The translations under genes were made by a program, and so were the position numbers. Below are positions 4,796 to 21,756 of a DNA stretch of 31,265 bases, in pieces (position 1 is the first letter of the stretch; every line of letters begins with the position of its first letter). Location: the IMG/VR virus record IMGVR_UViG_3300048553_000062, positions 1 through 31,265 of that record; one strand, 5' to 3'. The DNA is from a virus. Below the pieces are notes generated by a model. That model made no database searches and had not been told where the DNA came from. It saw only the letters and a list, made by a program, of their open reading frames with translations.

Positions 4796-5198
4796 CATAA
4801 CAATGGTGGGCCGACTAACAGCGCCCCCAGAACTACGCTTTGCTAAAAGCGGTACACCTTGGGCAACATTCAGTATTGCTGTTACCCGAGGACGAGATGA
4901 CGATAAAGAAACATCTTTCTTTGATTGCAAATGTTTCGGAGCGTTAGCAGAGAACATTTCGGAGATCCCTAAAGGGACGAGAGTCATTAGCGACGGTTAT
5001 CTTGTCCAAGAAAAATGGGAAACTAAAGACGGACAGAAAAGATCCAAAGCTGTCTTTATGGTCAATGATGCCGGACCTTCAATACGGTTTGAGCCGATTG
5101 TCAGCGATGGCCCTGCCGCCAAACGCACAGACAAACAAGCAGTTGAAACTGTGCAAGAAGCTTTCGACACTGAGCCCCCTGAGGAAGAACCGTTCTAG
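4785..5198 (+). CDS. ssb: Single-stranded DNA-binding protein
   Basis: This 137-aa SSB coats single-stranded DNA and recruits partners through its acidic tip. It opens with the typical OB-fold start ('MSSNITMVGRLTAPPELRF'), followed by a strand pattern like bacterial SSB ('WATFSIAVTRG', 'TSFFDCKCFG', 'GTRVISDGYLVQEKW'). It ends in Pro-Pro-Glu-Glu-Glu-Pro-Phe, the conserved acidic tail with terminal Pro-Phe. ATG 4785 has a strong ribosome site (AAAAGGAGG, 4767-4774-region) and is preferred to the upstream in-frame codon at 4749. It overlaps the annealase gene by 11 nt. Confidence 0.93.
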   Translation: MSSNITMVGRLTAPPELRFAKSGTPWATFSIAVTRGRDDDKETSFFDCKCFGALAENISEIPKGTRVISDGYLVQEKWETKDGQKRSKAVFMVNDAGPSIRFEPIVSDGPAAKRTDKQAVETVQEAFDTEPPEEEPF

Positions 5199-5200
5199 TG

Positions 5201-5353
5201 ATGGCTACCGAAAAGACAAACGACCGGCATCTTTCGATACGCCTATCGTCTATAGATGATGAGTGGCTTACTGCTTTTGCTGGCTTGCAAGGCACAAGTA
5301 AGAGCCGGATTATCCGCGAAGGAATAAAACTTTTGCGAGAAAGATACACATGA
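5201..5353 (+). CDS. Ribbon-helix-helix DNA-binding protein
   Basis: A 50-aa ORF two bases after the ssb stop. The sequence fits an Arc/CopG-type ribbon-helix-helix: a short strand 'HLSIRLSS' (residues 10-17), helix 'DDEWLTAFAGLQG' (19-31), then 'SKSRIIREGIKLLRERY' (33-49) with the Ser/Arg start of the second helix. Such proteins dimerise and bind short palindromic operators in the major groove. ATGA overlap (5350-5353) couples it to a second protein with the same apparent fold. The ribosome site is not obvious, so coupling to ssb translation is likely. Confidence 0.7.
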   Translation: MATEKTNDRHLSIRLSSIDDEWLTAFAGLQGTSKSRIIREGIKLLRERYT

Positions 5354-5646
5354 TCGGCAGAGGAGGGGGTCAGCTATATGCGGCTCCCTCCTCATGCCCT
5401 ATTATTAATGTCATGGAAGAAGAAGACGGTGTAGCTATAGCCGCAGACGTAGAAATGGTTTCTGTGGGATTACACGCAGATCTTTTACTTCGGCTTGATT
5501 GCTATTGCGATGCAATGAAACATCATCCAGCTACGCCTAACGAGATACACCAGATTCCTTTCTGGGCATTTCGTAGCAACGTCATTCAAGCAGCCGTTGG
5601 GTTCTTCCTTGACGATCCAGAACTACCACTATTTGAATCGGACTAA
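5350..5646 (+). CDS. Second ribbon-helix-helix-like protein
   Basis: This 98-aa protein contains 'VSVGLHADLLLRLDCYCDAM' (about residues 37-56) followed, after an insert, by 'RSNVIQAAVGFFL' (about 75-87). That order (strand, helix, then Arg-Ser-start helix) matches a CopG-type ribbon-helix-helix with an enlarged inter-helix loop. The first 20 residues are low in structure, and Met22 (ATG 5413) is a possible alternative start. The ATGA overlap with the upstream RHH gene favours ATG 5350. Together the two genes form a tandem pair of candidate palindrome-binding regulators. The fold assignment is by pattern only. Confidence 0.62.
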   Translation: MIGRGGGQLYAAPSSCPIINVMEEEDGVAIAADVEMVSVGLHADLLLRLDCYCDAMKHHPATPNEIHQIPFWAFRSNVIQAAVGFFLDDPELPLFESD

Positions 5647-18576: not shown

Positions 18577-18620
18577 TGGTGTTACTCGTTCCTTGGATCG
18601 GCTTTGGCCTGATCGTTACA

Positions 18621-18719
18621 TCACCGTTTGGTTTTTGCATTCTTTTTCTTCCTTGCGGCGGCAGCAGCCTTTTTACCTTTAGCGGTATAAGGATACTTCT
18701 TTCCTTTAACGATAGGCAT
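18621..18719 (-). CDS. 32-aa Lys/Ala-rich basic peptide
   Basis: ATG 18719 to TGA 18621 encodes 32 residues: 'MPIVKGKKYPYTAKGKKAAA' followed by Arg, Lys and Asn residues. Short peptides opening Met-Pro-x-Val-x-x-Lys-x-Phe/Tyr-Pro-Tyr-Thr-Ala-Lys-Gly occur next to structural genes in many phages, which argues that this is real despite its length. The charge of roughly +14 suggests DNA or RNA binding, perhaps in packaged DNA or head interior. It has no clear ribosome site and lies in an otherwise gene-free 226-bp gap after the capsid terminator. Confidence 0.72.
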   Translation of the reverse strand: MPIVKGKKYPYTAKGKKAAAAARKKKNAKTKR

Positions 18720-18754
18720 GATTGAAATGATAGCAGAGAAGCGTAGGGGAGCCG

Positions 18755-18788
18755 GGAGAAGGGGGAAAACCCGACCCCCCCACTTCTC
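18755..18788 (-). terminator. Possible hairpin terminator after the capsid gene
   Basis: GAGAAGGGGG (18756-18765) can pair with CCCCC-A-CTTCTC (ending 18788) with one bulged A, just past the capsid gene stop (18803) in the leftward direction. No strong T run follows, so it may only attenuate transcription, giving more capsid than fibre mRNA. Confidence 0.5.
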
Positions 18789-18802
18789 TTAGGAACTAAC
18801 TA

Positions 18803-20264: not shown

Positions 20265-20287
20265 ATGTCACTCACCTAACCTGTACG

Positions 20288-20311
20288 CATTCCAGCGGTG
20301 GTACTGGAATG
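20288..20311. repeat. Leader hairpin upstream of the scaffold gene
   Basis: CATTCCAG (20288-20295) and CTGGAATG (20304-20311) form a perfect 8-bp stem with an 8-nt loop. It lies between the leftward promoter and the scaffold start, so it would be in the 5' leader of the head-gene mRNA and could stabilise or regulate it. Confidence 0.65.
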
Positions 20312-20362
20312 GAGGGGCATTGAACGCCTCTGGACACCAATGGCGGACGATCAATGAATGAA

Positions 20363-20392
20363 ATGATACAGAAATTTCAATGAGAAAGTCAA
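20363..20392 (-). promoter_or_regulatory. Late promoter of the capsid operon
   Basis: On the - strand TTGACT (20392-20387) and TATCAT (20368-20363) are separated by 18 bp, a near-consensus primary-sigma promoter pointing at the scaffold and capsid genes. The spacer contains TCATTGAA, a copy of the phage-wide word. A start near 20356 would give a leader of about 90 nt carrying the 20288-20311 hairpin. Confidence 0.7.
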
Positions 20393-20395
20393 CAG

Positions 20396-20414
20396 TTCAT
20401 TGAATTTCAATGAA
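20396..20414. promoter_or_regulatory. 19-bp palindromic operator candidate
   Basis: TTCATTGAA-T-TTCAATGAA is a perfect palindrome around one T, made of two full copies of the 9-bp word. It is directly upstream of the -35 element, and further copies lie at 20351-20358 and inside the promoter spacer (20376-20384). The 151-bp gap 20265-20415 is the only intergenic region with this cluster. Confidence 0.75.
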
Positions 20415-20415
20415 A

Positions 20416-21756
20416 TTACCTAGCTGAACCAAGTCCTGATGCGCCTCGTTCATTGACTAAAAGCCCTGATTGGCCGCCAAATGGCACGTTTCTTTGTTGC
20501 AGTAAACGATTCAATTCAATGGAACTCTCTGAATCTAACCCGAACTCTGCTGCTGCGAGTTCCGCACCAGTCATTCCTTCAGAACCAATCAAACTGCTTG
20601 TCGTCCCACGACGTTGCCCTAACCGTTGCTGTATTTCTCTTTGTTGGATACCTGCATCAGCTAATCCTTCAGCAGTAACTTGCAAAGCATTTAGGTTCGG
20701 GGTGTCTCCAATGACATCCATTGTTGTAGCTGCAAGACCAGCGGCTTCGAGCCGTCGTCGTTCTTCAAACAAGTTGGACGATTTAACTGGGTCAAGGTAG
20801 TAGCCGACAAGATCTTGGTCGTTGATGTTGTAGAACTCGCGAAGCAATCGCTTTGTTTCGGGGTCTGCGTCTGTTACAGCAGCTTCCGCTAACGTGATGC
20901 GTGTCTGAAACTCTTGTGCCGACACATCGCCGCCAATAAGATCTCCCATTTCTTGACGATCCAAAATGCCTGCGAACCCTGATTGTCTGGATAGCGCCGT
21001 GTAGTCACGTTCGAGATCTAAATAATCTTGCTCACTGATTGCTGGTAACCCAGCTTTGAACCGTGTAGCCATTCCGGGGAATCGAGCTTTATAAGATTCA
21101 GTTTCTCTTATTAACTGGCCGATACCTATATCTGACACCCCATCAATCATGGCTTGTTCAATGGTTGTTTGAAGCGCTGGGCTTAAACCCCAACGACGCA
21201 ACAGATCCCCTAAAACAGAACTAGCGTTTTGTCTGGCTGCATCTGACTGCCATTGAGTCATTGCATCGCCCCACGCCGCCGAAGGATCTCCGCCGCCTGT
21301 GTTCTTTTTGCCGCTATTGAAATCCGGGTTCAGGGTATAAGTGGTGGCACCTTTGCGGTCTTTCCCAGTTAAATACTTCGGGTTGCCTTGGGCGTCTGAT
21401 GTTCCAAAGTCAGCAGGTTTAATTGGTGCCGTGTAATAGTCGGGGTTGTTGGACCATGACCCCGGTTGCCTACTCCCATCTGCTCTTAAAACTCGCCTGT
21501 AAAGTGGTTCGTCGTCTTCGTCGAGAGGGTTTAGCTCACCACCCGGCTCGTAAGGGTCGTCTGCGGCTAGCTGTTCGGGAGTGTCACTCCACCCACCTTC
21601 AGGCCTAAAGAAGTCCTTTTCGCCTGTCCAAATGTAACGAACACCGCCTTCAACATAAGAGCCGTCAGCAGTGTTAATTACCTTGCCTTGGCTAGTTACA
21701 TCAGGACCGGTGTAAGGATCTTTGCCAAACTCAAAATCTGGGTTATCTGTTGCCAT
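20416..21756 (-). CDS. Internal virion / ejection-type protein
   Basis: This 446-aa protein has a disordered acidic N-terminal half (Gly/Pro/Asp rich, residues 1-165) and a helical C-terminal half with 'YKARFPGMATRFKAGLPAI' and 'QDYLDLERDYTALSRQSGF' (about residues 220-265), then 'AEAAVTDADPETKRLLREFY'. I associate this helical pattern with actinophage proteins encoded between portal and capsid genes. It ends with a Gly/Arg-rich tail. It may be a minor capsid or DNA-ejection protein; no enzymatic motif is seen. Translation is coupled to the upstream gene (TAATG at 21756). Confidence 0.6.
   Translation of the reverse strand: MATDNPDFEFGKDPYTGPDVTSQGKVINTADGSYVEGGVRYIWTGEKDFFRPEGGWSDTPEQLAADDPYEPGGELNPLDEDDEPLYRRVLRADGSRQPGSWSNNPDYYTAPIKPADFGTSDAQGNPKYLTGKDRKGATTYTLNPDFNSGKKNTGGGDPSAAWGDAMTQWQSDAARQNASSVLGDLLRRWGLSPALQTTIEQAMIDGVSDIGIGQLIRETESYKARFPGMATRFKAGLPAISEQDYLDLERDYTALSRQSGFAGILDRQEMGDLIGGDVSAQEFQTRITLAEAAVTDADPETKRLLREFYNINDQDLVGYYLDPVKSSNLFEERRRLEAAGLAATTMDVIGDTPNLNALQVTAEGLADAGIQQREIQQRLGQRRGTTSSLIGSEGMTGAELAAAEFGLDSESSIELNRLLQQRNVPFGGQSGLLVNERGASGLGSAR

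Follow-up and report, generated by a model that had tools for sequence, protein, structure and literature searches.

The predicted promoter of the scaffold and major capsid genes in a tailed phage carries copies of a palindromic word, TTCAWTGAA. The word is enriched in a single lineage, its conservation exceeds expectation, its strongest copies lie between genes, and at this head promoter it keeps fixed offsets. The evidence leans modestly towards an operator set on the scaffold/capsid promoter, within a lineage-specific genome-wide TTCAWTGAA system, which would be bound by a small phage protein, most likely a 50-aa ribbon-helix-helix (RHH) product, and would be repressing. We infer all three of these: protein binding, the RHH product as binder, and repression.

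The window, that is, the whole 31,265-nucleotide stretch analysed, is a fragment of the phage genome. It is probably from an actinobacterial phage, since it has two WhiB-like genes and its capsid protein shares about 40% identity with Streptomyces phage capsid proteins. A host search for capsid relatives in GTDB genomes returned distant Firmicutes prophages only. A close relative, G001 (IMGVR_UViG_3300020370_000015, 38.8 kb), has the same genes as the window plus about 8 kb. It includes an AAA-type ATPase gene at 37692-38561 (L084 18292-19161, minus strand) matching phrog_249, which is annotated 'porphyrin biosynthesis'.

Table 1. Features of the window, with coordinates
Feature	Position	Strand	Details
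Sigma-70-like promoter, scaffold/major capsid operon	20363..20392	-	-35 TTGACT 20392-20387, 18-bp spacer, -10 TATCAT 20368-20363
Site O0, TTCAATGAA, perfect	20406..20414		Outer arm of the inverted repeat (19 bp); upstream of O1 by one helical turn
Site O1, TTCATTGAA, perfect TTCAWTGAA	20396..20404		Inner arm of 19-bp inverted repeat, directly upstream of -35
Site O2, TTCAATGAG, score 10.2	20376..20384		Within -35/-10 spacer, two helical turns from O1
Site O3, ATCAATGAA, score 10.4	20350..20358		Covers expected transcription start
Further site TTCATTGAC, score 10.8	20449..20457		3' end of upstream gene
Perfect site TTCAATGAA	1370..1378		Intergenic, upstream of gene at 1394
Perfect site TTCAATGAA	1758..1766		Intergenic, upstream of WhiB-like gene at 1855
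Scaffold-gene 5' leader, covarying hairpin beside ribosome-binding site	20265..20350	-	Alignment A4
Candidate binder, 50-aa RHH-like protein, MATEKTNDRHLSIRLSS...	5201..5353 (gene 5198-5353)	+	Pfam, phrog_876, lineage distribution
98-aa protein, downstream of RHH gene	5350..5646	+	Positional homologue of ~90-aa protein in word-less relatives (alignment A3)

The word and its motif

The word TCATTGAA occurs 27 times in the window against 2.1 expected, a count that none of 100 shuffles reaches. Its core, CATTGAA, has 71 copies where a second-order Markov model predicts 9.3; the two strands carry 36 and 35 of them, so there is no strand bias. A 9-bp palindrome, TTCAWTGAA, describes the motif better than the 8-letter word that it includes, and 25 perfect copies of it are found where 0.7 are expected. 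The excess of CAWTG over the relatives grows with the number of matching flank positions, from none to all four, as 1.25, 1.35, 3.7, 8.9 and 33.8-fold. Sites of score >=8 number about 145 and 156 in the two word-bearing genomes vs. 28 per 31 kb in relatives, these scores being partly circular because the motif weights were fitted to the window and G001 themselves; the flank and intergenic comparisons are less dependent on the fitted weights. A Chi-like recombination signal, asymmetric and orientation-dependent, was considered and set aside, the enrichment being palindromic and free of strand bias.

Sites of the strongest class lie between genes 16 times vs. 2.9 expected (5.5-fold), and 13 of the 25 perfect sites are intergenic. 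Most sites fall within genes, in both orientations and several frames, and about half of the in-gene words read NNC-ATT-GAA. Preferred spacing or helical phasing was looked for genome-wide and none was found. Clusters occur at the head promoter, at G001 539-656 (five sites, between divergent operons) and at G001 36475-36711 (four or more). The preliminary description had presented the head promoter as the first functional context for the word; it is not the sole one, since G001 has clusters also between divergent operons and in a third intergenic region. The intergenic region between the divergent operons (G001 456-1202, also L083) spans ~750 bp, contains five strong sites and G-rich tracts, lies beyond the part of the genome that the window covers, and is likely an early/late control region or origin.

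The word is confined to one branch of its family. CATTGAA counts are 71 in the window, 82 in G001 and 5-14 each in 14 sister phages with capsid proteins 69-93% identical, and dinucleotide composition is similar in the word-bearing and word-less groups. A scan of IMG/VR for TCATTGAANTTCAATGA returned 17 stretches, two of them contigs of the window's lineage and the others without a comparable word excess. The distinct near-complete genomes with the word are two only, the window and G001. Between these, 47 of 66 alignable words are intact in G001 vs. 36.2 +/- 4.0 for matched 7-mers, and 11 of 2000 draws reach 47. Words are missing at 14-18 kb of the window, where its tail-fibre block lies (13.5-17.5 kb); parts of this block match a word-less relative at 99% identity, and the lack of words is as would be expected if the block had been exchanged recently. 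In another contig, L009 (IMGVR_UViG_3300046749_000009), a tail region that bears the word and is 99-100% identical to the window is joined to a capsid region that lacks it and resembles that of L008; the contig is either a natural recombinant or a chimeric assembly.

Synonymous change was also considered as evidence of selection. In genes shared with word-less relatives, 105 comparisons keep the same amino acids over the word and the DNA differs in 76 of them. This line was dropped, since control 7-mers in the same genes differ at a similar rate (64%); it shows only that words can arise via synonymous change, with no excess of such change.

The promoter ahead of the head genes

The minus-strand promoter TTGACT-18-TATCAT is present as first described. 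Promoter matches of this kind number 2 in the window vs. 3.3 expected in shuffles, so the match alone is unexceptional, and the call is supported because the promoter is kept in related phages rather than by match quality. Across 49 non-redundant leaders from capsid relatives, the window and G001 among them, an equivalent promoter stands 121-151 nt (mostly 121-133) ahead of the start-codon end. The best match averages 9.9/12 over these leaders vs. 8.2 in mononucleotide shuffles, and most of the relatives have TTGACA with a TATAAT-like partner. Judged from this set, the head-gene promoter is conserved across relatives. It is flanked on one side by the gene of a 446-aa protein and on the other by a 159-aa gene, taken from its position to encode the scaffold protein, and then by the major capsid gene.

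The promoter gap (151 bp) had been called the only sizeable one in the operon, which is not correct: the gap at 18577-18802, downstream of the capsid gene, is larger (226 bp). This latter gap has a strong hairpin 3' of the capsid gene (minus strand, z = -3.2) and may hold a 32-aa lysine-rich ORF on the same strand.

The scaffold/capsid leader has a structure of its own, kept in about 40 relatives, with two hairpins in which 9 of 11 pairs are changed on both sides. In alignment A4, 96.6% of cells are paired vs. 87.9% in shuffles. The invariant loop CCACCG might pair with the ribosome-binding site, AGGTGAG. In the lineage of the window, hairpin 1 has a changed form. No Rfam match was found in the five sources searched; the leader is possibly a new regulatory RNA.

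Sites at the head promoter

The sites overlap promoter elements, namely the spacer and the expected start, in both word-bearing genomes, and three of them keep their offset from the start-codon end. At -143 the window has O1 and G001/L047 also has a perfect site; at -123 the window has O2 and G001 a perfect site; at -97 the window has O3 and G001 also has a site. Strong word sites are absent from the remaining 47 of the 49 leaders. The 151-bp gap holds 4 sites of score >=10 vs. about 0.3 expected (Poisson P about 3e-4). The density is less telling taken over the genome, since for three CATTGAA within 38 bp anywhere a Poisson estimate gives about 0.26 expected at the given word density, which is not rare.

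The details first reported for this region stand in part. The 19-bp inverted repeat TTCATTGAA-T-TTCAATGAA at 20396-20414 was confirmed, with perfect 9-bp arms, as was the spacer copy TCATTGAA at 20376-20383. A further copy downstream is less exact than was proposed, the nearest (ATCAATGAA, O3) having one mismatch and the next, GGCATTGAA, lying at 20316-20324. The 19-bp palindrome as a whole is not conserved: O0, at offset -153, occurs in the window only and completes the palindrome there, and G001 has none at that offset, hence one site where the window has two. The centre-to-centre distances are 10 bp for O0-O1 and 20 bp for O1-O2, and the 10-bp pair is missing from G001. The reading of the layout as an operator is well supported by the conserved promoter, the lineage-specific sites and the three shared offsets. 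Between the repressor and activator initially offered, the repressor is favoured because the sites adjoin the -35 element, fill the spacer and cover the start site.

Candidate binding protein

Two RHH proteins had been proposed at 5201-5646. The first gene product is RHH-like on weak but concordant signals, and the second has no Pfam or predicted-fold support. The 50-aa protein matches Pfam RHH_1 with E=0.035, which falls short of the Pfam cut-off, and phrog_876 'transcriptional repressor' with E=3.7e-4. Its predicted model has helices at residues 20-28 and 35-50 at moderate confidence (mean pLDDT 68.7). Fold searches with the models of both small proteins (5201-5353 and 5350-5646) gave no match at E below 0.001, the 50-aa model had no match in the PDB, and sequence searches of solved structures with both proteins found none. 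Homologues of the RHH protein in phage records are weak matches only (E of 0.7 or higher), and many of them carry annotations as Leuconostoc phage repressors. In IMG/VR, the sole homologue was L131, which is an almost identical fragment of this phage. L153, a 37% relative of one early protein, has a GC content of 68% and lacks the word.

The gene was found in word-bearing phages only. Between SSB and RusA, a single ~90-aa ORF is present in each of 11 word-less relatives, and the window and G001 have the 50-aa RHH-like gene in addition. From position 8 on, the 50-aa protein differs between the two by one change (I19T), amid many synonymous differences. Many other lineage-specific genes co-occur with the word because only two distinct near-complete genomes carry it. 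The 50-aa protein is the best candidate binder of the word, but we treat this assignment as a working proposal, with chances approaching even, because its RHH-class support is modest and the lineage has further genes that no other phage compared shares. Sites are not dense around the RHH gene, and any autoregulation would therefore need to work through the promoter of its operon.

Proposed mechanism and alternative readings

We propose that a small protein encoded by the phage, most likely the 50-aa RHH product, would bind each TTCAWTGAA palindrome as a dimer. At the head promoter, dimers would sit beside the -35 element at O1 (plus O0 in the window), in the spacer at O2 and over the start site at O3, and would exclude RNA polymerase until late in infection. 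The weaker in-gene copies may add roadblock or DNA-coating effects at high protein level, and suggest stoperator-like or DNA-coating roles. Against an operator reading as such, most sites lie in genes, without fixed spacing, and are more than operators alone need. A wider proposal, which we hold to be rather unlikely, is that the 50-aa protein uses the palindrome at well over 100 places, coding sequence included, both as operators and as a genome-wide coat marking or organising DNA, the whole having been gained in one branch of a word-less family.

Slightly less probable again is that the word mainly binds a nucleoid-like phage protein that coats, bridges or shields DNA, the head-promoter cluster being a dense spot. 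The 145-156 sites of score >=8 per genome vs. 28 per 31 kb in relatives would suit such a protein, as would their placement mostly within genes, in both orientations and several frames, and the words in conserved genes where word-less relatives use other codons. However, the strongest sites are concentrated in intergenic DNA and at promoters, and those at the head promoter keep their offsets.

Selection of the word by the host, through a host protein, a recombination signal or a DNA-modification system acting on any phage of that host, is much less probable. Against it, G004 has tail-fibre genes 99% identical to those of the window, hence probably a similar host range, and lacks the word. Moreover, asymmetry is the norm for a Chi-like signal, and a modification system recognising a CAWTG core would have no need of the TT/AA on either side.

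Marginally behind stands an activator that recruits RNA polymerase from upstream of the -35 element for late transcription. The centres of O0 and O1 lie roughly 54 and 44 bp before the expected start, and the -10 element (TATCAT or TATTCT) is weaker than in many relatives, both of which would fit such an activator. The polymerase would be obstructed by the conserved spacer and start-site copies, however, and word-less relatives have the same promoter position without any site. That base composition and common codons produced the word, with an accidental position at the promoter, is very improbable: the in-gene reading NNC-ATT-GAA and the ease of finding a dense cluster somewhere agree with it, but the full palindrome is 33.8-fold over close relatives of similar composition, and the by-product reading is already contradicted by that comparison, with the excess between genes and excess conservation also against it.

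An orphan word is now tied to a promoter whose downstream genes are known, and to a 50-aa candidate protein that can be tested. The sister phages lack the word while their capsid genes and promoter are almost the same, and so offer a natural before/after comparison for the gain of a genome-wide operator system.

Comparison with known systems

The Arc repressor of phage P22 is a phage-encoded protein of about 53 aa whose dimers bind short palindromes about one turn apart, at an operator between the -35 and -10 elements. The head promoter would resemble the systems of Arc, Mnt and other small RHH repressors in its candidate small phage protein, short palindromic sites and putative operator over the promoter. 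Arc acts at a single promoter, whereas the phage word has >100 sites over the genome; the sequence relation of the 50-aa candidate to Arc is at fold-family level only, and its binding is predicted. Arc-like spacings of 10 and 20 bp are seen at the head promoter, but genome-wide no spacing is preferred and the 10-bp pair is absent in G001. MatP is an RHH protein that binds many dispersed palindromes, the matS sites, and organises DNA. It differs in its 13-bp site, its confinement to the chromosomal terminus region of enterobacteria and its larger size.

Viral RHH proteins have been reported to repress via promoter occlusion and by spreading outwards from strong sites onto degenerate ones; for SvtR, the repressed target is a structural gene of SIRV1 (PMC5569661). 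This Sulfolobus virus protein is likewise a small viral RHH repressor of a virion gene with proposed strong-to-degenerate spreading (PMC5569661), but acts at archaeal promoters, with four known sites in the viral genome and a different motif. Viral RHH factors of this kind (PMC5569661) form the nearest functional precedent.

The stoperators of cluster A mycobacteriophages (L5, TipsytheTRex) are copies of a phage-specific word dispersed over the genome, some at promoters (PMC9283540, PMC6550527), a distribution that the present word shares. They are asymmetric, 13-14 bp long, 20-30 per genome, oriented with transcription and bound by a monomeric two-domain repressor, whereas the phage word is a 9-bp palindrome with many more sites, no orientation and a mostly in-gene location. 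A stoperator system proper was rejected on asymmetry, the word being a 9-bp palindrome, and on orientation (36/35 on the two strands). The SPBRE/MrpR system of SP-beta also has a dispersed phage-specific motif and a master repressor at several promoters (PMC10516654), but with a 15-bp motif, about ten promoters and, in a temperate phage, a recombinase-like repressor. Cluster A stoperators likewise belong to temperate phages, with a site-specific HTH immunity repressor; in the window, the proteins scanned, a subset of the ORFs of an incomplete genome, gave no match to an integrase or immunity repressor. Our findings would add a marine actinophage group, so far without signs of a temperate life style, to the dispersed-operator systems of temperate mycobacteriophages and SP-beta. 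In general, the head-promoter system would work like Arc at the promoter and like stoperators or SPBRE in its dispersal.
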